From Gammaproteobacteria bacterium (GTDB lineage: Bacteria > Pseudomonadota > Gammaproteobacteria > Pseudomonadales > Pseudohongiellaceae), in assembly GCA_026710425.1 (NCBI GenBank), contig JAPORB010000164.1, positions 1 to 41,779 on the forward strand: a DNA stretch of 41,779 nucleotides, written 5' to 3'. Each line of letters opens with the position of its first letter. Positions within the stretch are counted from its first letter, which is position 1. The translations under genes and the position numbers were made by a program. Positions 1 through 10,071 of the stretch are shown in pieces. Below the pieces are notes generated by a model. The model did no database searches, was not told the origin of the DNA, and worked only from the letters and a program-made list of their open reading frames with translations.

Positions 1-820
1 TGTCGCGCTGCCGTCCCGCCTTGTCCTTGAAACAAGTTTCGTAGGCGAGTGCATTCACCAGCCACGGCTGACCAGCAGTCGATTCCACAATGCGACTGAT
101 GGCAGATTCCTGGAATACTTGACCAGTCTCCTCCGTGTGCTGCGCCAGCAGGGTGTGTACCTCCCGCTCACAGAAGTCGCCGAGGCGCAAGGAATCCGAC
201 TTGATGTTGAAGGCACTGCCGCCGGCAATGATATCTTTTTCGGAACTGGTATCGATGCGATAGTCCCGGACATTGCGTACACCGCACAGGATGACTGATT
301 GCGGGAACAGTGCCGGACGCTTATGATAGCGGGAACGGAGCTGACGCATCACCGACACCAGGGTATCGCCAACCAGAGCGTCAATCTCGTCCACCAATAA
401 TACCAGAGGGAGGGAACTTGCCTCGCACCATTGCGTGAGCACCTCAGCCAGTGCAGTATCAGGTCCGGCAGACTCGAAAATTTCTGCCTTTTTGTCACTG
501 ACGAACGAGTCTCGCAATTCAGTACGCGCTTCCGAGCCAAGGGTGGTGAGGATACTGCTTATTCCCCTGCTCACATCCTCACGCGCAGTCTGTGCGCCTT
601 CGACGTTTACATACAAGCAACGGAACTCATCACTGGCATTGAGCAGGTCGGCCAGTGCCAACAGCACCGAGGTCTTGCCAGTCTGCCGCGGCGCATGTAT
701 CACGAAGTATTTTTTTTGCCGAATCAGATATAGGAGTTCATCCACATCCAGCCGTTCAAGCGGTGGGATACAATAATGATCGGCGACCACTACTGGTCCT
801 GCTGTGTTAAAGAAGCGCAT
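1..820 (-). CDS. AAA-like ATPase (AAA_35 type), 3' end cut by window edge
   Basis: The reading frame is open from an ATG at 820 to the left edge, so about 273 N-terminal residues are visible and the C-terminus is missing. Residues 43-51 read APRQTGKTS, a Walker A variant, and residues 139-149 read LVLLVDEIDAL, a Walker B strand with the catalytic acid. The opening residues (MRFFNTAGPV, then DHYCIPPLERLD) match my memory of a family of stand-alone AAA-like ATPases found in many copies in some bacterial genomes. Their client is generally unknown. No partner gene is visible, because the neighbour at 1293 is separated by more than 450 bp. Family assignment is good; cellular role is not known. Confidence 0.85.
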   Translation of the reverse strand, partial: MRFFNTAGPVVVADHYCIPPLERLDVDELLYLIRQKKYFVIHAPRQTGKTSVLLALADLLNASDEFRCLYVNVEGAQTAREDVSRGISSILTTLGSEARTELRDSFVSDKKAEIFESAGPDTALAEVLTQWCEASSLPLVLLVDEIDALVGDTLVSVMRQLRSRYHKRPALFPQSVILCGVRNVRDYRIDTSSEKDIIAGGSAFNIKSDSLRLGDFCEREVHTLLAQHTEETGQVFQESAISRIVESTAGQPWLVNALAYETCFKDKAGRQRD

Positions 821-1292
821 ACTGCAATTATAACTTGACCTTAGTCGTCAATACGAATTTTTATTCAGTCAAGCATTGTAAGCACAATCGTTGCCATAAC
901 ATGCCAAATAGAAAGTTATTACAGGCAATAATGAATTTTTTATTTATTGCAAATTCGCAAAAACCCTCTTGAATTGTTGAGATCAAAACCATTCGGAATT
1001 ACAACCTGCTGACACTCGCAAAATGCCTTCGAAATCTGACAAACATTCAAAATTTGGTATAATTTTTCAAAGTAAATTGCAAAAATGTCGTTGCCAGGAA
1101 ATCTAAATATGAAAGTTCGAGGACTTTCAATCAAGAACTGCCATTACTCAATGACTGCTAGTCTTACTGGAATTGAACTGGCCAAACTTGTTAGGCCATA
1201 ACATAACGGTTGATCTTCGTAGGTAGTAGGTAGTAGGTAGTAGGTAACTGAAGCGACCTATTTTGGGGAATACTGAGTCCAAGGACTAAACC
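821..1292. other. intergenic region, AT-rich, with a short tandem repeat
   Basis: There is no supportable gene here. A 64-codon minus-strand frame at 940-1134 has no recognisable family or ribosome binding site. The only clear structure is the 7-base tandem repeat at 1219-1246. The region lies upstream of the ATPase on its left and downstream of the phosphatase on its right, so it probably holds the ATPase promoter. Confidence 0.6.
1219..1246. repeat. four exact tandem copies of GTAGGTA
   Basis: Four perfect 7-base units lie head to tail between the AAA-like ATPase and the SpoIIE phosphatase. A 7-base unit is outside any reading frame I accept. It has the form of a slippage-prone microsatellite. 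Confidence 0.95.
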
Positions 1293-2252
1293 CTAGAATA
1301 AAATCCTGAGCAGCGAAAAATCGTCTGGCAGACTAAGGTCTCCATTTTTGGATCGCACCCAGTCATAAAACTCCTTTGGCCCGTTGCTCGGATCGGCGGA
1401 GAGGAAATTCACCAAGTCATCAATTTCCAGCATGCCGTCTTTCGCATCCGGCAATTCAAAAGCTCCATCACTGTAAACGATCAGCCGGTCCCCCGTAGAG
1501 ACCCGGGTTATGCCTTCGCTGTAATTAAGGTCTGGGAAGGTACCAATGGCGATATTGCCAATATTGCCAAGCAATTCTGTTTCATCCCCACCACCACGCA
1601 TCAACACGGCGGGTGGATGTCCACCAGTCGAATAACGCAACTCACCGCTTCGGCGATCATGTACCCCGTACCACATAGTAAAAAACTTGTCATGCTGACT
1701 TTCCATGGGAAAAGCATTATTGAGTGCTCCCAGTACCGAACTCGGAGACAAAAAATCTGTGCCAATTAATGACTGGCCACGCAAGACATTAATAACTGAG
1801 AATGAAAGCAGAGCCGGGCCGACTCCATGGCCACAAACATCAATGAGATATATGGCAAAGTGGTCCGGGTCGATGTGATGATAACCGAAAAGATCTCCAC
1901 CGAGTTCGGTGCTGGGTTCATAATGCCAGTCAGTAGCTGGTGATTGCTGGCGCGGATCCGGGAGCACCGAGCGAGCATAGAGAACGGCCTCGTCCATCTC
2001 CTCCTGCAGCCTGGTCTGAGTGCGAGTAAGCTCAAGGTTGGCCTCGGCAAGTTGATCCTCTACCGCCTCACCATGGGCAATTGTCGCCTCGTATAGTAGT
2101 GTCAGATCCTCATACTCAGCTGTGAGCGCACTCAGCTTGCGTTGAGTTTCCGCCAATGTCATGGCCAGCTCCGATGCTTGCCGTTCACCTGCCTCAACGA
2201 CTGTCTGCCCTGCCCTGCTGGTTTCTGGATTGTTGTCTGTGCTGTTAGACAT
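1293..2252 (-). CDS. soluble SpoIIE/PP2C-family serine phosphatase with coiled-coil N-terminus
   Basis: A protein of 319 residues. Residues 1-95 are hydrophilic and heptad-like, a probable coiled coil, with no PAS, GAF or receiver domain. The rest is a PP2C phosphatase domain of the SpoIIE/RsbU class: GGDLFGY at 118-124, DVCGHG at 138-143, STGGHPPA at 208-215, SDGAFE at 261-266 and DDFSLL at 310-315, which supply the metal-binding aspartates. Enzymes of this class dephosphorylate a phosphoserine on a STAS-domain antagonist. It is cytosolic, since it has no signal peptide or membrane segment. It is transcribed away from the signalling operon that starts at 3138, which contains STAS proteins and a second phosphatase, so a shared substrate is a reasonable inference. 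With no sensor domain, its input must come through the coiled coil or a partner. Confidence 0.92.
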   Translation of the reverse strand: MSNSTDNNPETSRAGQTVVEAGERQASELAMTLAETQRKLSALTAEYEDLTLLYEATIAHGEAVEDQLAEANLELTRTQTRLQEEMDEAVLYARSVLPDPRQQSPATDWHYEPSTELGGDLFGYHHIDPDHFAIYLIDVCGHGVGPALLSFSVINVLRGQSLIGTDFLSPSSVLGALNNAFPMESQHDKFFTMWYGVHDRRSGELRYSTGGHPPAVLMRGGGDETELLGNIGNIAIGTFPDLNYSEGITRVSTGDRLIVYSDGAFELPDAKDGMLEIDDLVNFLSADPSNGPKEFYDWVRSKNGDLSLPDDFSLLRILF

Positions 2253-2487
2253 AATCTGGAAATATCTGGATATCTTTTGGTAGACGGATGCTTCCGCAAC
2301 CTGGTCTGGTGGTGGTGCAAAGCCGTTGAGGTATTTATATTAAGCATTATGCGCCGATTAGCGAAGTAGGGCAAGTGAACGACCTTTAACGGCAAGCCAT
2401 CTGTAGCCCTGACCACCTAGCCAAGCATAAGTAGTCAGTTTTTTATTCATACGGTCGGCTGCAACACGGATTGCGGCGGTGCTGACA

Positions 2488-2663
2488 GTGGGTTAACAAC
2501 CCACAGGGCAGACATTAGGCCAAGAGCAAAACTTACATTGGCACCGCTGTGCCAATGCTTAGCTCTGTGACCTGTCGCCAGTTGCCAGAGATCGCAAAAA
2601 AGCCGCTCTGATGCTGCCCTTATACACAGAGCAGTCTGCGTTATATGGAAATCGGCAACCGAT
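2488..2663. ncRNA. possible structured RNA or folded element (cluster of inverted repeats)
   Basis: Four perfect short stems occur within 176 bases. They are 2488-2494 with 2498-2504 (GTGGGTT, 3-base loop), 2536-2543 with 2550-2557 (CATTGGCA, 6-base loop), 2562-2569 with 2625-2632 (GCTCTGTG, long range), and 2651-2655 with 2659-2663 (ATCGG, 3-base loop). A further complement, 2505-2511 with 2614-2620 (AGGGCAG), would cross the long-range stem and so form a pseudoknot if both exist. No known RNA family was recognised and the transcribed strand is unknown. A folded RNA, a regulatory leader or a mobile-element end would all fit. Confidence 0.3.
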
Positions 2664-2987
2664 ACCGTTGGCACCTGATTAACCATCTCTCACCCCGAGA
2701 GCATGAGATGTGTTGGTCGCAATAATGGTGAAAAATGGTCATCAAATCCCAGTGATCAGCTTGGCCTGAAGTATTTGCATTTTACCTAGGCTATTGATTT
2801 TTAATGGATTTATATACCAAAAATAAGAGCTTTACCCTTAGAAAGACTTTTGGGATCGATTTTGGCAATTTCTTCGCCAATGTGTCATTTTCTCACTCAA
2901 GCGAAAAGTCCGAAACTGAAAAATTGCGTATTAAAATCCTAGTTTTGCTTGATTAACTCATGAAAGTAGTGGGAGGAGGTAAAAAAT

Positions 2988-3035
2988 ATGGGGAATTTAA
3001 CTGCTTTAATCCACAACGCAAATCCCAAGGCCTGA
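2988..3035 (+). CDS. possible 15-residue leader peptide with very strong ribosome binding site
   Basis: The sequence GGGAGGAGGT at 2971-2980 is a near-ideal Shine-Dalgarno site, placed 7 bases before an ATG at 2988. The frame runs 15 codons to TGA at 3033. It is the strongest ribosome binding site I found in the region and sits about 100 bp before the signalling operon, whose own first gene has none. The peptide is not rich in one amino acid, so classical attenuation is not suggested. It may be a leader peptide, or the site may be coincidental. Confidence 0.3.
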   Translation: MGNLTALIHNANPKA

Positions 3036-3137
3036 TTTGGTGTTGAAATCGGGTATGTGTTTGGTATATCTTTCGTAGTAATTTTTGGTTGCCAATTGAG
3101 AATCTAGACCAAGGATATCTGCCGCATAATCGAACTG

Positions 3138-3677
3138 ATGGTTGAAATAATGAAAAACAAAAAAGACAGCCAGGTGGAGAGCATAACCAACAACCATTTC
3201 AAGCCATTGCTGGAATTTGACCTGGATGCGAGCCACATTGATTCTCACTGGGAATATTGCACTCACATTGCTAATTTCGTGGCCCGTATGGTCAGCCAGA
3301 ACCGTACTGACCCCTTCATGTATTCAAACCTACTCTCCACTTCCCTGAACGAATTGCTTGAAACCGTCTACAGAACGGACAAGGAACCGGGCCAGTTGCA
3401 TTTTTGTATCCTGCGTGATGGCGATACCGACAGGATTGAACTGAGTATTCCATGTCCACAGAAAGAGCAGGAGTTTTTCACTGATCTGGTTGACAAAGTT
3501 TACGCACCGGATGCAACGGACATCTATCTTGGCTTTCTGTTTGCTGAGGGAGAGCTCGACCGCCGTATCGGGATCTACGAACTGGCACTCAACTACGATG
3601 CGCAAATTGAAGTGAACTTAACGAACAACAAGACAGTGCAATTGATTGTTGATGTGACCTTGAACGAAACCCACTGA
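3138..3677 (+). CDS. degenerate HATPase-fold regulator (probable pseudokinase), slr1658-like
   Basis: A protein of 179 residues, first gene of a five-gene plus-strand operon. Its layout parallels the intact kinase at 7235-7786: a central helix with NELLETV (71-77) aligns with NEMLENA there, and the C-terminal strands align as well. The asparagine of the N-box that should hold magnesium is threonine 76. The glycine-rich G2 loop (TGSGLGLL in the intact copy) is replaced around 140-150 by DRRIGIYELAL. Both ATP-binding elements are therefore lost, and I infer a non-catalytic binding protein. The start is uncertain: ATG at 3138 or 3150, neither with a good ribosome binding site. The next gene starts 10 bp after the stop. 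The family name is from memory of cyanobacterial slr1658-type regulators. Confidence 0.72.
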   Translation: MVEIMKNKKDSQVESITNNHFKPLLEFDLDASHIDSHWEYCTHIANFVARMVSQNRTDPFMYSNLLSTSLNELLETVYRTDKEPGQLHFCILRDGDTDRIELSIPCPQKEQEFFTDLVDKVYAPDATDIYLGFLFAEGELDRRIGIYELALNYDAQIEVNLTNNKTVQLIVDVTLNETH

Positions 3678-3687
3678 GCTATGTCTA

Positions 3688-4851
3688 GTGTCCACTTCAT
3701 TTGAATTCGACTTCAACGAAAACGATCAGGTTTTCAAGCTTTCGGGCAACATGCGCCCGCAAAGCGAAAGCGAGATCAAAGGTTGCCTAAATGCATTGCG
3801 GGACTCGGCTCAAAATGCCAGTGGTACCCTCTACGTCAACGTGCGACGGCTATTGCAAACCAACAATGTTGCCTTCAAGGGCATTACGGCTGCCTTGGCG
3901 GAAATAGGTCGCGAACATCCAAAGCTTAATATCACAATCTCCACCTCAAGTGCTCTTGGCTGGTCAGCCAGAAAGTTTGGCGTGCTGCCGGACCGGTTGC
4001 CCAATGTCAATGTGGAGGAATACGACAAGGAATTTTATCCAGGCCAGTCCTTTGTCGAGGACGATTTCTTCGTTTCAGTGCTGCGTACCCAGACCACCAT
4101 GACCTGGCGCCATGAGAAACACATTTTGCCCCGTCATGGGATTGCAAAAGGTATGAAAGTAGCCGACATTTGCTGTGGCATTGGCGATTTCGCGATTCTG
4201 CTGTGGAAAGAGTTTCAACCTTCCCAAGTTGTGGCTCTTGATCATGCCAAGGCAAGCCTTGACTATGCCAGAAAAATGGCACAGGAGTTCAAAGTTAGCG
4301 GTGTCGAATATGTCTTTGGTGACGCGGCGGAAATCCTGCTTTCTGAAAACGAGTTCGATTTTGTGACTTGCCGCCATTCCCTGCAGGTGTTCGATCGGCC
4401 AGAGTTGATCCTGGAAGAAATGTTCCGTATCTGCAAACCGGGTGGAAGGGTTTATGTCACCAACGAGAAAAACTCCCACTGCCTAGGTGAACCCCGCGGC
4501 GAATCGATTCAGTGGACCTATAGTGAAGTGGCAAAACTATGGGATTATTTCAATATGGATATAGAGATTGGTCCAAAAGGCCGCCGCTTGCTGGCGGATG
4601 CTGGGTTTGATGATATCCGTATGGAGTCCTTCATGGTGACCAATCTGGACGGGAACCCGGAGGAGTTTGCAGCCATTATTCGCACCTGGAAACACCTATT
4701 TGCCGAGAATATGGCGCGGGCCCGCGGGGATGATGAGGCATTCATTGAAAAGTTCAAGCAAGGCTTTGATGATCATATTTTCGCCGCCCTACATCCCCGG
4801 GGTTATGCAGGTTGGCCCATCTGGGTAGCATCTGGACGTAAGCCCACATAG
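3688..4851 (+). CDS. STAS-like domain fused to a class I SAM-dependent methyltransferase
   Basis: A protein of 387 residues. Residues 1-115 look like a STAS domain related to the stand-alone protein at 7875-8213. An ungapped match around the phosphoacceptor loop puts N60 and V61 where that protein has S61 and S62, so the phosphorylatable serine is missing. Residues 145-300 form a Rossmann methyltransferase: motif I VADICCGIGDF (158-168), acidic loop VVALDHA (181-187), then FDFVTCRHSLQVF and ICKPGGRVYV. The substrate is unknown. The C-terminal 90 residues are probably a substrate cap. The start is GTG at 3688; an ATG at 3681 is in another frame and stops at once. The next gene begins 10 bp downstream. 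Fusing an output enzyme to a partner-switch domain suggests its activity is set by HATPase binding rather than by phosphorylation. Confidence 0.82.
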   Translation: MSTSFEFDFNENDQVFKLSGNMRPQSESEIKGCLNALRDSAQNASGTLYVNVRRLLQTNNVAFKGITAALAEIGREHPKLNITISTSSALGWSARKFGVLPDRLPNVNVEEYDKEFYPGQSFVEDDFFVSVLRTQTTMTWRHEKHILPRHGIAKGMKVADICCGIGDFAILLWKEFQPSQVVALDHAKASLDYARKMAQEFKVSGVEYVFGDAAEILLSENEFDFVTCRHSLQVFDRPELILEEMFRICKPGGRVYVTNEKNSHCLGEPRGESIQWTYSEVAKLWDYFNMDIEIGPKGRRLLADAGFDDIRMESFMVTNLDGNPEEFAAIIRTWKHLFAENMARARGDDEAFIEKFKQGFDDHIFAALHPRGYAGWPIWVASGRKPT

Positions 4852-4861
4852 AGCAATTACC

Positions 4862-7231
4862 ATGCAGGAAATTAGAAACAACTTTGGAAGATTCGATTTC
4901 GCCAGCTTTCGGCTCAAGTTCATTCTGGTCGTCTGTGCAGCAGTCGTTTTCGATCTGTTAATGTCGGGTAGCGTGTCAATCTGGAATATGACTCGCCTAT
5001 CCGATGATGCCCGCCGAGAAGTGAACACAGGCTTGACAGAGTCCACCGAGCAATTTCTCGAAACCTATATACTGATGACCACTTCGCAGGCAGATTTGTT
5101 GCTTGATCAGGTACACTCCGAACTGACAATGCTAGCACTGGGCATGCAGGAGCTGATCGATAATCCTGACGTAAAGGATAGTCTTGGAAGTGCAATACAG
5201 AATCAACAGGGGCTGACTACCGAGCTGGTTTATAACGAGACCGGAGGCTGGTCCCAGAATGAGCCGGGAGCTCCCTCGGCTGTAAGCGTTTGGGGCTATT
5301 TGCTGGATGACAATCTTGATCCTTTGCCCGCTACCCAGGAACAAATCAGGCAAAGCAAGTATCTGGATCTAATGGGACCGGCACTGATGGAGTCGGGTGC
5401 TTCCAAATTGCAGGTGTATTATGTTGGCCCTAAAAATGCGTCAATCCTTCGGGCCACTCCTTATTCTGATCAGGCTGCCACCTTTGATGAGCTATATCCG
5501 GGCCACAATGAGGGTCCGAACTTCTGGGATTTCTTCTTCCCCGGTGTCTACGAAGGCTGGCAGGACTGGCTGGCAGATCCAAATACCAGACCTCTTGATA
5601 CTAATGTAGTGATGACAGACCCCTATGTGGATGCCATCACCGGCATAACGATTGTCAGTTTTTTCCACCCGCTGTGGACAGCAGACCGCAGCGATGTGGC
5701 CGGGATGGTGGCTATCGACATTACACTCGACCAGCTGGAAACTCTAGTGGAAAGCATTGCTGTGGCCGAAACTGGTTTTGGCTTTCTATTGATGTCCAAT
5801 GGAAATGTCATCGCCATCAACGAGGTTGACGAAAGCTATATCGGTCTAACCGCTGGCGAAGGTGATGGACAGGGAGTTACTGGTGTGGAACGCTCAATCC
5901 GCGACAGTAGCTATCCTGCTGTTGCCCGTCTGACCTTGCCGAGTTCGGAAGCAGAGGGTGTGACGATTCAGCATCTGAACCTTGGAAGAGAGGGAGCCGA
6001 TTACATGGTGGTGCAAAAACTCATGCAACCCATGCAACTGTGGAATCCGGAAACGGGAATCGGCACCGAAAACATGACGATGGGATTCTTTATATCAGAG
6101 GCTGAGCTCTACCAGCTGCTTTCCACCATTGAGGGCGATATAGAAGCAGCCACATTCCGTATATTCAACCTGCAAATCATGGTGCTGTCCATCAGTCTGG
6201 TTATTGTAATTTTGGCTGTATACGCCATATCCGGTCGCATTACTCGCGGGTTGAGTGCGTTGGCCGTTGCCGCCCGGCAAATTGAGAAAAAAGACTATTC
6301 CGTTCGCGTTGATATTCCATCGAAAGATGAGGTTGGCAAGGTTGGACATGCCTTCAACTCCATGGTCAAGGAAATTCGGTTGCATACCGAAAATCTCGAA
6401 AACCTGGTGGAGGAGCGTACCCGTGACCTTGAAAAGGCAAACCGGGAAATCATCACGCTCAACGAGAAACTGAAAACCGAAAATTTACGACTTGGTGCCG
6501 AACTCGAAATTGCACAACACATCCAGACCATGGTACTGCCACGCACACGGGAGCTAAAGTACTTGCCCACCCTGGAGGTTTCGGGTTTCATGAAGCCTGC
6601 CGATGAAGTCGGTGGCGATTACTACGATGTGCTGCAAAACGGGACTAATGTGAAAATCGGCATCGGTGATGTCACCGGTCATGGCTTGGAAAGTGGTGTG
6701 CTGATGCTGATGGTGCAGTCTATTGCCCGCGGCTTGTATGAACAGGGCGAGGCCAGTAACGAAAAGTTTCTGGATACAGTCAATCGAGCCGTATTCAAGA
6801 ATATCGAACGCACAGAGACTGACAAGCATCTGACACTGGCCTTTATCGATTATGACAATGAAATGCTGACACTAACCGGACAGCATGAGATTGCCCTAAT
6901 TCTCCGGGCGGACGGCAGCCTGGAAAAAATTGATACCATGGAACTTGGTTTTCCGGTAGGCCTGGAGTTCGATATTGCCCCCTTCATTAGTAGCCGACAG
7001 CTAAGTTTTACCACTGGCGATACCCTGATATTGCACACAGACGGAGTTACCGAGGCAGAGAACAGTGCTGGCGAATTGTTTGGCTTTGATCGTCTTTGTG
7101 AGAGTGCAATTCGCTATGGCCAGGCTGAACCTGAAGAGGTGACCAAAGGGATTGTTGATGATGTCATGAGCTTTATCGGAGACCAGAGCATCTTTGACGA
7201 CATTACACTTGTTGTTATGAAACACAGGTAA
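4862..7231 (+). CDS. membrane sensor serine phosphatase: dCache - HAMP - SpoIIE
   Basis: A protein of 789 residues. A first membrane segment at about 19-42 and a second at 436-458 enclose a periplasmic region of nearly 400 residues with the look of a double Cache sensor. A HAMP linker (about 455-510) and a coiled coil (about 508-550) lead to a SpoIIE/PP2C phosphatase domain from 575 to the end: GGDYYDV at 584-590, DVTGHG at 603-608, HTDGVTE at 725-731 and DDIT at 779-782. The architecture matches SiaA of Pseudomonas and similar RsbU-like receptors, which dephosphorylate a STAS or STAS-like partner in response to an external ligand. It lies between the degenerate and the intact kinase/STAS pairs, so the STAS protein at 7875 is the likely substrate. 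The gap to the next gene is only a few bases. Confidence 0.93.
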   Translation: MQEIRNNFGRFDFASFRLKFILVVCAAVVFDLLMSGSVSIWNMTRLSDDARREVNTGLTESTEQFLETYILMTTSQADLLLDQVHSELTMLALGMQELIDNPDVKDSLGSAIQNQQGLTTELVYNETGGWSQNEPGAPSAVSVWGYLLDDNLDPLPATQEQIRQSKYLDLMGPALMESGASKLQVYYVGPKNASILRATPYSDQAATFDELYPGHNEGPNFWDFFFPGVYEGWQDWLADPNTRPLDTNVVMTDPYVDAITGITIVSFFHPLWTADRSDVAGMVAIDITLDQLETLVESIAVAETGFGFLLMSNGNVIAINEVDESYIGLTAGEGDGQGVTGVERSIRDSSYPAVARLTLPSSEAEGVTIQHLNLGREGADYMVVQKLMQPMQLWNPETGIGTENMTMGFFISEAELYQLLSTIEGDIEAATFRIFNLQIMVLSISLVIVILAVYAISGRITRGLSALAVAARQIEKKDYSVRVDIPSKDEVGKVGHAFNSMVKEIRLHTENLENLVEERTRDLEKANREIITLNEKLKTENLRLGAELEIAQHIQTMVLPRTRELKYLPTLEVSGFMKPADEVGGDYYDVLQNGTNVKIGIGDVTGHGLESGVLMLMVQSIARGLYEQGEASNEKFLDTVNRAVFKNIERTETDKHLTLAFIDYDNEMLTLTGQHEIALILRADGSLEKIDTMELGFPVGLEFDIAPFISSRQLSFTTGDTLILHTDGVTEAENSAGELFGFDRLCESAIRYGQAEPEEVTKGIVDDVMSFIGDQSIFDDITLVVMKHR

Positions 7232-7234
7232 TCA

Positions 7235-7786
7235 GTGATGCAGGAAGTGATAGGAAACCCGGAGGTCGTTGAGCATAAGCAAATACCAACATTCCGATTG
7301 CAATTGTTTGAAGGCCCGCTAGAGCTGGCTTGGAAACACTGCGATATTACAGCAGATTTTCTGGGCAAGTTGCATGCGGTATGGTCAGGCCAGGCGGATA
7401 CTGATGCCAACGAGATACGGCATAATGTGTCCTATATCATTAATGAAATGCTGGAAAATGCGGTTAAGTTTAGCTGCTCGCCCTGTGTCGAACTTGATAC
7501 AGGACTGGGACATAAGAAGTTCCTGTTGCGGATTGTCAATGCCATCACACGAGATTCGGCGATGCAATTTCAGGAATTGCTCAATAAAATGGAGAAAGGT
7601 GACCCTTCAAGCCTGCTGATTGAGCGTCTTGAGTTTAATGCTGCCGATCCGAATTTGACTGGCTCGGGGCTGGGTTTGCTGACACTGATGAGCGATTACT
7701 CGGTCGAGTTCTTCTGGAAATTCGCCGAAACTGACGATTCTGAGTTCATAAACCTTGAAGCTCATGCCAGTTTACCACTTGAATAG
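7235..7786 (+). CDS. RsbW/SpoIIAB-like HATPase serine kinase, slr1658-like
   Basis: A protein of 183 residues with intact ATP-binding motifs: N-box NEMLENAVKFS (70-80) and G2 loop TGSGLGLLTL (142-151). Proteins of this fold phosphorylate a serine on a STAS antagonist and bind it when it is unphosphorylated. The first 60 residues are an extra N-terminal segment typical of the slr1658-like group as I remember it. Start is GTG at 7235 or ATG at 7238, only 3 or 6 bases after the phosphatase stop, so the two are co-translated. The STAS gene follows after 88 bp. No sigma factor is encoded nearby, so the target may be another protein, for example the methyltransferase fusion at 3688. Confidence 0.88.
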   Translation: MMQEVIGNPEVVEHKQIPTFRLQLFEGPLELAWKHCDITADFLGKLHAVWSGQADTDANEIRHNVSYIINEMLENAVKFSCSPCVELDTGLGHKKFLLRIVNAITRDSAMQFQELLNKMEKGDPSSLLIERLEFNAADPNLTGSGLGLLTLMSDYSVEFFWKFAETDDSEFINLEAHASLPLE

Positions 7787-7874
7787 ACTGTACTACAATT
7801 TAACCTCCTGACAGCAACTGACTGTTGCCTCAAGAGACGATTCAGCGACACTAAGTAGAGGCTAGGATTTTTCA

Positions 7875-8213
7875 ATGGAAATAAAGACCGGCGAGTATCG
7901 AATTTGGAGCGAGGAATCAACCATCCACTTTGAAGGCACCATGCGGTTGTCCGGGATGGAAGCTTATGAACCCATCCTAAAACTAATGGACGAAGTTCTT
8001 GACCAAAGCCCGGATCAGATCAATCTTAACTTGCTGGAGTTGGAGTTCCTGAATAGCTCTGGCATCAATCTGCTTGCACGTTTCGTCATCAAGGTGCGCA
8101 AACTGGGTTCGACAAAGATTTCGGTCAAGGGATCAAAACGCATACCATGGCAATCTAAATCATTGCCCAACCTCAACAGGCTACACCCAGACCTTACACT
8201 CTCGGTCGTCTGA
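7875..8213 (+). CDS. STAS-domain anti-anti-sigma-type switch protein, slr1659-like
   Basis: A protein of 112 residues made of a single STAS domain. The strand-helix turn FLNSSGIN (58-65) carries the serine pair that is phosphorylated in SpoIIAA/RsbV-type proteins (S61 or S62). The C-terminal part IPWQSKSLPNL (90-100) is characteristic of the slr1659-like subgroup as I recall it. A ribosome binding site AGGA lies 7 bases before the ATG. As last gene of the operon it is the expected substrate of the kinase at 7235 and of the phosphatases at 4862 and perhaps 1293. It converges on pstA with 172 bp between them; I saw no clear terminator in that gap. Confidence 0.9.
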   Translation: MEIKTGEYRIWSEESTIHFEGTMRLSGMEAYEPILKLMDEVLDQSPDQINLNLLELEFLNSSGINLLARFVIKVRKLGSTKISVKGSKRIPWQSKSLPNLNRLHPDLTLSVV

Positions 8214-8385
8214 ACCCTTGCCATCAACATGAAGTGCAATGCTACGCTCCTGCAGCAAGTCTGGTGTGCCCACCTTGTTTCAACCCCTGTAGCCATTCGC
8301 TATTTCTTTAACTAAAGAGTCCTAGGCATTGTCAGGTCTGGCCGATCCGAACCTTGCTCGCCTTCGATGCCAAGCAGCATGTTGG

Positions 8386-10071
8386 TTAAAGTCCCTCCCG
8401 CAATCTGTTTCTTAACACTGCCGCACTGAAATTCAGCAAAGCAATTACTGCCACCAACAGCAAGGCGGTGGCAAAGACCAGCGGCATTGCTGCTTGCGTA
8501 TTGGGACTTTGCAATCCGACTCCATAAATGTGATAGCCCAGATGCATGAACTTCTGGTTGAGATGAAGATAGGGGTATAGGCCATTTACCGGCAGTGAGG
8601 GGGCTAGCTTGACCACTCCGACGAGCATCAGGGGAGCCACTGTGCCCGCCGCCCGTGCGATAGCCAGCATCAGCCCGGTCATCATGGCCGGACTGGCAAT
8701 GGGAAAGACCACCTTGACGATGGTTTCAAATTTGGTAGCTCCCAAGGCCAGACTACCCTCGCGCAGACTGCGGGGAACTCGTGCCAGCCCCTCTTCGGTG
8801 GCAACAATTACCACTGGCATGGTCAGCAGGGCCAGAGTCAGGGATGCCCAAAGCAAGCCCGGTGTTCCAAAAGTTGGTGCCGGAAGGGCCTCAGCAAAAA
8901 ACTGGCGATCAATCTCTCCACCCACGATATAAATGAAAAACCCCAAACCAAACACACCATAGACGATAGAGGGTACGCCGGCGAGATTATTGACCGCTAT
9001 ACGAATTATGCGTGTCAGCAGTCCCTGTCTGGCGTATTCACGCAAATAGATGGCCGCTATCACGCCAAACGGTGCTACTAACATCGACATCAATAGCACC
9101 ATCACCACGGTGCCAAAAATAGCTGGAAAGATGCCACCCTCGGTATTGCCCTCCCTGGGATCATCAGCAACGAACTCAAGTACCTTTGTCATGAAAAGGG
9201 TCAGTTTTTCTGTAAAATCTAACTGGTTGGGACGATAAGCACGAATGATTTCGCTTAGCGGTATTTCGATGCGTTGATTATTGGCGGTGATTAGCCGCAC
9301 CGAATCACGATTGACCTGTTCGGCAAGATTATTCAAGCGTGTCTGAAAATCTCCATACTGGGACTCAAGAAGCGATAATTGACGAACGTCAGCATCCAGG
9401 TCCTGTGCTGGTTCGCTAATCAGTAATTCATTACGGCTTTGTTGTCGACGCAGCTGTTCAATCTGTCGATTTATTCGAGCCAGTTGCCGACTTTCCAACA
9501 AGCTGATTTCCTCAAGTAACTGCGCTGTCCGTTGGAGACGCTGTTGAAAATCCTGCCAAAGCGTCTCGTCAGTTGACTGATCACCAGCATTTGGCACTAC
9601 TTCCTTAGCCTGCTGCAACACAGATTCCATATACCCATAAAGATTACCCCAGCGACGACGCTCCAGCACGACTATATCCGCTGGATAAGCAATATCAGAA
9701 GTGAATTCCATTACGATCCAGCCAAAATCTGACTCGGACAAGTCCCGATTACCGAACTTGACCAGCTGGCGTTGGTAGGTGTCAACTCCAAGAGAAAGCG
9801 CAAAGCCATTATCAGCCAGTTGCTCTGCCGCTACTGCTTCAAACTGAACTCGTTCCCCGATAAATTCCGATGTTGCGATGGCTCTGCTGGCAATTGGTGG
9901 GTTGTAGTTACCCTGCATAACCTGCTTGGGCCAAAAATGGCCCATCCCCTTGAATGCCAGGAGTGACAGCAAACCAACCACCATGATTAGGCTGATGGCA
10001 ACCGCACTGGCAGTGATCCAGATAAATGGCGTGCCCGAACCAGCCCAGTTCTGCAAACGAGCCACTTTCAC
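8386..10071 (-). CDS. pstA: phosphate ABC transporter permease PstA, long form
   Basis: A protein of 561 residues, about twice the usual length. A first membrane segment lies at about 17-40. A long soluble insert follows (about 45-295), with a probable coiled coil at 175-255. The typical permease core starts near 315. The EAA loop that docks on the ATPase is at about 426-450 and includes LARVPRSLREGSLALGATKF. With PstC it forms the inner-membrane channel for phosphate delivered by PstS. Its ATG overlaps the pstC stop by 4 bases, so translation is coupled. The downstream neighbour is convergent, so pstB, normally next, is not here. Long PstA proteins with such inserts occur in several gammaproteobacteria. 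Confidence 0.95.
   Translation of the reverse strand: MKVARLQNWAGSGTPFIWITASAVAISLIMVVGLLSLLAFKGMGHFWPKQVMQGNYNPPIASRAIATSEFIGERVQFEAVAAEQLADNGFALSLGVDTYQRQLVKFGNRDLSESDFGWIVMEFTSDIAYPADIVVLERRRWGNLYGYMESVLQQAKEVVPNAGDQSTDETLWQDFQQRLQRTAQLLEEISLLESRQLARINRQIEQLRRQQSRNELLISEPAQDLDADVRQLSLLESQYGDFQTRLNNLAEQVNRDSVRLITANNQRIEIPLSEIIRAYRPNQLDFTEKLTLFMTKVLEFVADDPREGNTEGGIFPAIFGTVVMVLLMSMLVAPFGVIAAIYLREYARQGLLTRIIRIAVNNLAGVPSIVYGVFGLGFFIYIVGGEIDRQFFAEALPAPTFGTPGLLWASLTLALLTMPVVIVATEEGLARVPRSLREGSLALGATKFETIVKVVFPIASPAMMTGLMLAIARAAGTVAPLMLVGVVKLAPSLPVNGLYPYLHLNQKFMHLGYHIYGVGLQSPNTQAAMPLVFATALLLVAVIALLNFSAAVLRNRLREGL

Follow-up and report, generated by a model that had tools for sequence, protein, structure and literature searches.

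A mobile partner-switch-type gene module with a STAS-methyltransferase fusion as its putative output

A stretch of 41,779 nucleotides from a gammaproteobacterial contig (JAPORB010000164.1), hereafter called the window, carries six genes, A to F, which we read as a mobile, conserved module of the SiaABC or slr1658-slr1659 kind, with a methyltransferase as core output that would be controlled by exchange of the STAS protein F for the STAS-methyltransferase C on the pseudokinase B; we give this joint reading a probability of about 45%. At the level of sequence, the gene content, the homologies, the intact and lost motifs and the conserved gene order are established, and the module seems to link an outside signal to methylation via a phosphorylation switch. 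To our knowledge, the end points of partner switches are mostly sigma factors, with c-di-GMP synthesis in the case of SiaABCD. A methylation output in which holding and phosphorylating are divided between two paralogous kinases would, if true, provide a route to new switch outputs.

An intact and a degenerate kinase/STAS pair

The six open reading frames of the original prediction are present at matching coordinates, and B to F show operon-like packing on the forward strand, with gaps of 10, 10, 3 and 88 bp. The kinase E (7235..7786, +), with intact N-box and G-box, and the STAS protein F (7875..8213, +), with an NSSG phosphosite, are members of the slr1658 and slr1659 superfamilies, with 150.8 bits against NF047703 (E 2.7e-44) and 145.4 bits against NF047705 (E 7.1e-43), respectively, the cut-off being 100 in both cases; these superfamilies are named after Synechocystis genes. 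The matches of the other pair to the same models are weaker: the degenerate SpoIIAB/SiaB-like kinase, or pseudokinase, B (3138..3677, +) reached 53 bits (E 2.8e-14) and the N-terminal STAS domain of C (3688..4080, +, limit approximate), which lacks the phospho-serine, 26.2 bits (E 7.8e-6), both below the cut-off of 100, which makes them homologues and not members. By profile-profile comparison the B family matched the E family at E 1e-8 and C-STAS matched the F family at E 5.1e-11 over 102 aligned columns, and in a tree B forms one group (91/94) and E another (100/99).

The proposal of two pairs, one intact and one degenerate, holds across relatives, as judged from motif counts over distinct aligned sequences, some of which are fragments or near-copies. 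The metal-binding Asn of the N-box is found in 35/35 sequences of the E family, with SGLG in 32 of the 35, and in 0/33 of the B family. The N-box Glu is retained in 33/33 B sequences, so B has not simply decayed. All 36 F-family sequences have the NSSG phosphosite, which aligned, weakly, with the DSSG site of SpoIIAA. At the phospho-Ser column the C family (n=29) has Asn in 22 sequences, Met in 4, Ala in 1 and Ser in 2, and C of the window has Asn. Since Ser is kept in 2/29 and a Thr lies one residue past this column in 14/29 (Val in the window copy), phosphorylation might still occur in part of the C family.

Inspection of a 3-D model of B (mean pLDDT 85.4) against the PDB gave SpoIIAB complexes as top matches and the SiaB-SiaC complex 6kko at rank 6, with modest TM-scores of 0.38-0.53 of the query; the fold of B is predicted to be of the SpoIIAB/SiaB type, in line with the HATPase fold first proposed for it. 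The E-family profile found no convincing chain in the PDB (best E 0.12). The model of C was weak (mean pLDDT 61.9) and all 50 Foldseek matches listed were methyltransferases or methyltransferase-fold proteins, so the STAS assignment of its N-terminus rests on sequence profiles; the STAS fold first proposed there stands by profile, and the 3-D model is too weak to carry it alone.

The C-terminal part of C (4081..4851, +, limit approximate) is a class I SAM methyltransferase with the motif DICCGIGDFA (PF13847, E 4.2e-19; PDB 3mgg, 6e-19), and the predicted fusion of a degenerate STAS domain to a methyltransferase is supported. Its best NCBIfam score was 72 bits, and it lay under the cut-off of all 25 best NCBIfam models. 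Over 20 sequences motif I is invariant apart from one nearly invariant residue, and the domain is apparently intact. C shares its catalytic core with UbiE/MenG-like class I methyltransferases and, unlike them, has an N-terminal STAS domain. At least 80% of C is contained in 120 of 72,556 plasmid records. In a spread sample of 50 of the 195 matching plasmid records, 31 cover 99-100% of C at 56-62% identity, and the remaining 19 cover 21-45% of it, essentially the methyltransferase part, at <35%; this split into full-length and methyltransferase-part sets indicates that the fusion is a discrete family.

The loss of catalytic and phosphorylation motifs in most copies could also mean that B and C are a decaying, functionless duplicate, but B has invariant residues including N71, E72, L73 and E75 in 18/18 sequences, C is 59-75% identical over its full length between distant hosts and the gene order is retained in 18/19 loci, which makes such decay very improbable.

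Two phosphatases accompany the pairs. D (4862..7231, +) is a membrane sensor phosphatase (PF07228, 1e-34; HAMP, PF00672, 4.3e-12) whose dCache match (PF02743, 1.2e-9) lies below the cut-off of that model, and its domain order is likely dCache, HAMP, SpoIIE. A (1293..2252, −) is a soluble SpoIIE/PPM phosphatase (PF07228, E 4.8e-36, residues 129-316) with an N-terminal coil. Pfam found neither a sigma factor nor a GGDEF domain in the six genes.

Comparison with known switches and a proposed mechanism

With a kinase, a STAS antagonist with a serine site and PPM phosphatases, the module has the gene content of a partner switch. A HATPase kinase, a serine-site STAS antagonist and a PPM phosphatase are likewise found in SpoIIAB-SpoIIAA-SpoIIE and RsbW-RsbV-RsbU, where the phosphosite of RsbV is Ser56 according to the accessible text of PMC11418112; unlike in these systems, there is no sigma factor among the six genes. 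The module shares a membrane SpoIIE phosphatase, a SiaB-type kinase and a SiaC/STAS protein with SiaABCD of Pseudomonas aeruginosa, whose output is a diguanylate cyclase, whereas here the output would be a methyltransferase whose fused STAS domain mostly lacks the serine, and the module has in addition a degenerate second kinase and a phosphatase with a coil. The match of D to NCBIfam SiaA is partial (6.9e-35), and scores fell below the SiaABC cut-offs, with 120.7 of 700 bits for D against SiaA, 16.2 of 85 for E against SiaB and 12.9 of 150 for F against SiaC. In the accessible text of literature naming slr1658 or slr1659 we found no two-pair system and no methyltransferase output. Nor did the literature searched, mostly open-access and in its accessible text, describe the module (including PMC7555055, PMC4614683, PMC7902896 and PMC8256260) or a methyltransferase output for a partner switch.

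By analogy with SiaABC and SpoIIA, the kinase E would phosphorylate F at Ser61 and D, switched by a periplasmic ligand, would dephosphorylate it. With less certainty, the pseudokinase B may hold C through its STAS domain and unphosphorylated F, which resembles C-STAS, may replace C on B. As phosphorylation of C could not undo such a hold, release would fall to F in its unphosphorylated form. The signal would then set the amount of C that is free (or held), and through it the methylation of a substrate. Control of methylation by F through competition for B is a plausible hypothesis, and the kinase and holding roles appear to be split between E and B.

Distribution and gene order

The gene order expected to recur in relatives is conserved, and in the loci collected by tblastn the order and orientation of B to F are kept in 18 of 19 C-holding loci, which range from alphaproteobacterial MAGs to rhizobial megaplasmids. 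These loci were collected using C as the search key, so the constancy of C is by choice. In the 19th locus (G125), A and B lie together ∼9.8 kb from C-F and B is not adjacent to C, and in locus L026 both B and D are split into two pieces as read. The genes flanking the module vary from host to host, and a search of the 36 other genomes of the same genus did not find C. Since pSymB of the tractable symbiont Sinorhizobium meliloti 2011 carries the module, it is directly testable.

One further locus bears on the partner of B. In L032 (G174), where no C was found, a B-type pseudokinase precedes an intact kinase/STAS pair and groups with B in the tree (support 100/100), so that B may serve E and F rather than C. 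B would then be a regulatory partner of E/F, for instance in a B-E heterodimer or as a sink for F, and C-STAS, a permanently unphosphorylated mimic of F, would dock as F does, the methyltransferase being recruited to a site and not switched by release; the 102-column alignment of C-STAS with F is consistent with such docking. However, B adjoins C in 18/19 loci, and in many of them the two reading frames overlap by 1-4 bp; the pseudokinase of L032 (L032b) is a long branch; and the coil of A, the obvious docking site, is absent from the rhizobial cassettes. We consider this arrangement unlikely and retain the exchange of F for C on B as the preferred reading.

Orthologues of A divergent from B were found in seven MAG loci (in one of these, L009, A is truncated by the contig end), in R. 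jaguaris L028 and in three genomes of the class of the window. A is absent near 8/9 rhizobial plasmid cassettes, and on most rhizobial plasmids inspected its position is taken by a GGDEF-EAL gene; in the two rhizobial cassettes examined with Pfam, such a gene precedes the cassette.

The coil of A and related enzymes

The coil of A (1989..2156, −) is a candidate STAS-docking site; its profile match of E 1.4e-22 is to a profile that includes the window's own row. Besides A, proteins with linkage to other slr1659 genes have a coil of this kind, namely histidine kinases, nucleotide cyclases and a diguanylate cyclase. Its residues L, H, E and L are invariant in six A proteins, three histidine kinases and one cyclase. 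A profile built without any A, run against 3201 ORFs, recovered the coils of A with E values from 5e-7 to 2.4e-4, that of the window at E 1e-4. In a first run with an A-only profile, the cyclase of L032 (5e-4) and the kinase of L030 (0.011) ranked above all 800 shuffled controls. L031 and L037 ranked among these controls, and therefore profiles made without each group were tested. The A-only profile in this test found the cyclases of L067 (6e-4) and L032 (1.4e-3) and the kinase of L030 (0.02), as well as an unrelated M23-peptidase coil (0.011), and did not find L031 and L037. The class-wide coil scan is partly circular, with 6/8 slr1659 genomes having supplied profile rows. Five cassette genomes of the phylum sample and the cyanobacterial kinase-STAS locus L069 gave no coil match, so this part is not general.

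SiaC binds the coiled stalk of the SiaABCD output enzyme, with its Thr68 inserted between the stalk helices of SiaD, and phosphorylation of Thr68 by SiaB blocks this binding, according to the accessible text of PMC8457831. A search of the PDB with the coil (E up to 10) returned nothing beyond coiled coils of a generic kind and a single unrelated regulator, and SiaD was not found; the link to SiaD is thus one of design and not of detected sequence homology. In loci with A, including that of the window organism, unphosphorylated F may also bind the coil of A, comparable to SiaC on the SiaD stalk, as a second output.

A wider and more tentative reading, which we regard as possible but on balance doubtful, combines two proposals: that slr1659-type STAS proteins choose their outputs by a portable coil (rough consensus L..LY..T.EH...VE..L), and that a frozen paralogous pair adds methylation. 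The coil would be placed on phosphatases, histidine kinases, nucleotide cyclases or diguanylate cyclases, and the B/C pair, frozen by its lost catalysis and lost phosphosite, would turn the same signal into methylation, so that a single sensor could act at the same time on the methyltransferase and, from D to F to A, on a phosphatase cascade.

Coil-bearing enzymes are likely the outputs of related slr1659 switches, and several slr1659 loci in which C was not found have them. The methyltransferase of C could, on this ground, lie outside switch control, its STAS domain only dimerising or placing the enzyme while the switch acts solely on A or, in rhizobia, on the GGDEF-EAL protein. Against this, B to F are kept together in 18/19 C loci while A is missing near 8/9 rhizobial plasmid cassettes, and the fusion of an enzyme to an F-homologous STAS domain, in linkage with B-F, is suggestive of control; an unregulated C appears quite improbable, and we favour C as an output of the switch. 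A shared coil would, if true, extend the principle of SiaC-SiaD activation to phosphatases, histidine kinases and cyclases. In the genome G857, a coil-GGDEF protein adjoins the kinase/STAS pair.

The six genes and their two kinase/STAS pairs

The six open reading frames (ORFs) lie where the original prediction had placed them. A soluble SpoIIE phosphatase (A, 1293-2252; SpoIIE by Pfam) is encoded on the minus strand, divergent from five plus-strand genes that start at 3138 (B), 3688 (C), 4862 (D), 7235 (E) and 7875 (F), with intergenic spacings of 10, 10, 3 and 88 bp. Pfam finds no credible domain in B, a methyltransferase in C, HAMP-SpoIIE in D, with a probable dCache sensor below the Pfam cut-off, a weak DUF6272 match in E and weak SiaC and STAS matches in F. 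By NCBIfam, E and F are slr1658- and slr1659-superfamily regulators, respectively, over the cut-off, and the pseudokinase B and the N-terminus of C match these same superfamilies at 53 and 26 bits, respectively, each under a cut-off of 100. Profile-profile comparison joined B to E (E-value 1e-8) and the STAS region of C to F (5e-11). The AlphaFold2 model of B, built with 10 sequences, is confident (mean pLDDT 85.4). The four PDB structures closest to it show SpoIIAB bound to SpoIIAA or to sigma F, and SiaB-SiaC ranks sixth, with TM-scores that are modest throughout. For C the model is weak (mean pLDDT 61.9), and by our own reading the strands and helices of its N-terminus alternate in a STAS-like manner.

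Motifs were counted over distinct aligned sequences from the loci collected, fragments and near-copies among them, and the E and F sets also take in systems without C. The phosphosite NSSG is present in 36/36 F-type sequences, although it aligns only weakly with the DSSG site of SpoIIAA (E-value 0.05-0.08), and E-type sequences carry the N-box Asn in 35/35 and SGLG in 32/35 cases. In the C family the phospho-serine column holds Asn in 22, Met in 4, Ala in 1 and Ser in 2 of 29 sequences; the following residue is Val in the window copy and Thr in 14 of the 29, all from plasmids or phylum-sample cassette genomes. In the B type the N-box Asn column holds Thr (14), Val (10), Leu (4), Met (3) or Ile (2), the Glu of the NE pair is retained in all 33 sequences, and no G-box is seen in an alignment of 20 B rows. 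The column counts across relatives bear out the observation that E and F keep their motifs and that B and the STAS domain of C have lost theirs. Judged by these residues, one kinase/STAS pair has stayed intact, and the other has degenerated in a constrained manner. The methyltransferase of C retains motif I (DICCGIGDFA), and C is more highly conserved than B.

Gene order and mobility

A scan of genome contigs gave seven relatives of C, all in alphaproteobacterial MAGs and with 73-76% identity, and the A-B-C-D-E-F arrangement is identical in all seven, the contig end cutting A in L009. By tblastn, B-F are in order in 11 of 12 further C-holding loci, namely eight plasmid regions (L026, L027, L029, L039-L043), R. 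jaguaris (L028) and genomes of the window's class (L033, L035, L036). In L036 (G125) C-F form one group and A with B another, some 9.8 kb away. B and D each read as two pieces in L026 (S. meliloti AK57) and as a single ORF in L053 (S. meliloti strain 2011). Conservation of gene order in relatives, a check named with the original prediction, therefore amounts to 18 of the 19 C-holding loci checked by tblastn. In the plasmid loci L053, L054, L070 and L071, ORF reading together with profile or tblastn matches reveals this order too, and in six other loci, chosen because they match slr1659 (weakly in one case), tblastn found no C.

At least 80% of C is present in 120 of 72,556 plasmid records; among 50 records listed as a spread over the 195 that match, identities drop from 56% (full-length) directly to below 35%, essentially the methyltransferase alone. 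Within 58 genomes, 37 of them from the window's genus including its own and some incomplete, C occurs at an E-value ≤1e-25 only in the window's own genome. Four of 385 genomes of the class of G425, an alphaproteobacterial MAG, hold C, G425 being one and the other three perhaps being among the seven MAGs, and three more genomes of the window's class hold it as a second STAS match in a 389-395-aa frame, confirmed by tblastn. The handles listed for the window's class and for that of G425 are not the same, so the host probably belongs to a proteobacterial class other than that of G425. The genes flanking the module vary from host to host, and the B-F cassette is a discrete, transferable module.

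The R. jaguaris plasmid of L028 has a second cassette (L070). By eye, a pstB-like ORF right after pstA, then a phoU-like ORF, are found in six of seven same-genus loci. In the window, what comes after pstA (8386-10071) is the module and, at the contig edge, a fragment of an AAA-ATPase gene. Another contig (G000:C258:1-2652) opens with some 0.9 kb of other sequence and then carries the best match to pstB, split in two pieces, and a phoU-like ORF. Comparing window 1-10071 with that contig, the module seems to have landed within the pst operon of this organism.

Proposed mechanism and relation to known systems

Judged from their families, E would phosphorylate F, and D would take the phosphate off F on a periplasmic ligand. 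Less certain than this cycle are the further steps, in which B would hold C via its STAS domain, unphosphorylated F would compete with C, such that the signal would set C activity, and, in A-bearing loci, F would additionally bind a coil in the N-terminus of A. The chief ground for doubting these steps is L032 (G174), with a B-type pseudokinase and no C. In this locus (L032:7575-10215) the pseudokinase is followed by an intact kinase and STAS protein of the E and F types, a convergent gene encodes a coil-bearing Guanylate_cyc-domain cyclase, and no C is found in the 17.5 kb. The pseudokinase groups with B at 100/100 in a tree that contains long branches, its own row among them, and it seems to serve something other than C.

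The module has the same build as a partner switch and may putatively work as one. It is distinct from SiaABCD, whose NCBIfam cut-offs its proteins do not reach and whose output is different. In the open-access literature searched we saw neither a methyltransferase output nor this order of genes described, and we regard the module as a previously undescribed variant within that literature.

Genes preceding B and the coil of A

A adjoins B in the seven MAG loci, L028, L033, L035 and G125, whereas in eight of nine rhizobial (Hyphomicrobiales) plasmid loci tblastn gave no match to A around the cassette. There, a GGDEF-EAL gene immediately precedes B, by Pfam in L027 and L054 and judged from ORFs alone in other loci; annotations of the preceding gene read 'EAL domain-containing' and 'diguanylate cyclase/phosphodiesterase'. 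The AK57 module sits on pSymB upstream of SMP-30, DUF1236, AraC-family, galE and glycosyltransferase genes, a neighbourhood that is putatively the c-di-GMP-responsive cuxR/arabinose-polysaccharide region. The arabinose-polysaccharide operon and its control by c-di-GMP are mentioned in a 2021 paper (PMC7902896). In R. jaguaris (L028:5410-7252) A has as neighbours a HATPase_c_2 kinase and a STAS protein of canonical type, a possible third pair and a possible substrate of A. In Aminobacter sp. MDW-2 the orthologue of B (L027:7462-7977) is annotated 'ubiquinone biosynthesis methyltransferase UbiE', a label unsupported by its sequence, which groups with B.

The coil of A, a candidate STAS-docking element, is common to proteins adjoining slr1659 genes elsewhere, namely histidine kinases (L030, L031, L037) and the L032 cyclase, and L15, H25, E30 and L33 are invariant across 10 aligned rows. 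A profile of four non-A coils recovers A coils among 3201 ORFs (E-value 5e-7 to 2.4e-4); the reverse profile is weaker and admits one unrelated coil. SiaC is reported to bind SiaD at two conserved stalk motifs, with SiaC Thr68 inserting between the stalk helices and binding blocked by phosphorylation (PMC8457831); a sequence search of the PDB with the coil showed no match to SiaD.

Among 369 genomes of the window's class, slr1659 is over the cut-off in eight and the coil is found in nine, the same eight plus G316, whose match is an M23-peptidase coiled coil. Six of the eight contributed rows to the coil profile; G125, with an A orthologue, and G289 contributed none, and in G289 the coil occurs as two repeats in a cyclase encoded on another contig. 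Among 388 genomes of the phylum, slr1659 is over the cut-off in seven and the coil is found in five, the two together in the window genome and G857, the latter without a row in the profile. In G857, two coils in tandem are followed by a GGDEF domain in a protein encoded just upstream of a kinase-STAS pair; the full row (L111:4485-9353) comprises coil-GGDEF, kinase, STAS protein, a phosphate-binding-like protein (by eye) and a SpoIIE phosphatase, a SiaABCD-like system built of slr1658/slr1659 parts. The three phylum-sample coil matches without slr1659 are weak (7e-4 to 7e-3). The coil was not found in the five other slr1659 genomes of this sample, which have a second STAS match in a long frame as in the cassette, in genomes with only sub-threshold STAS matches (G140, G863, G1081), or within the 16 kb of the cyanobacterial L069, where a kinase-STAS pair is present. 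The coil thus accompanies several kinds of slr1659 system, excepting rhizobial-type cassettes and some other loci. In L069 (L069:7265-9874, a Kovacikia minuta plasmid) the kinase-like and STAS ORFs are directly followed by a sulfate-permease-family gene.
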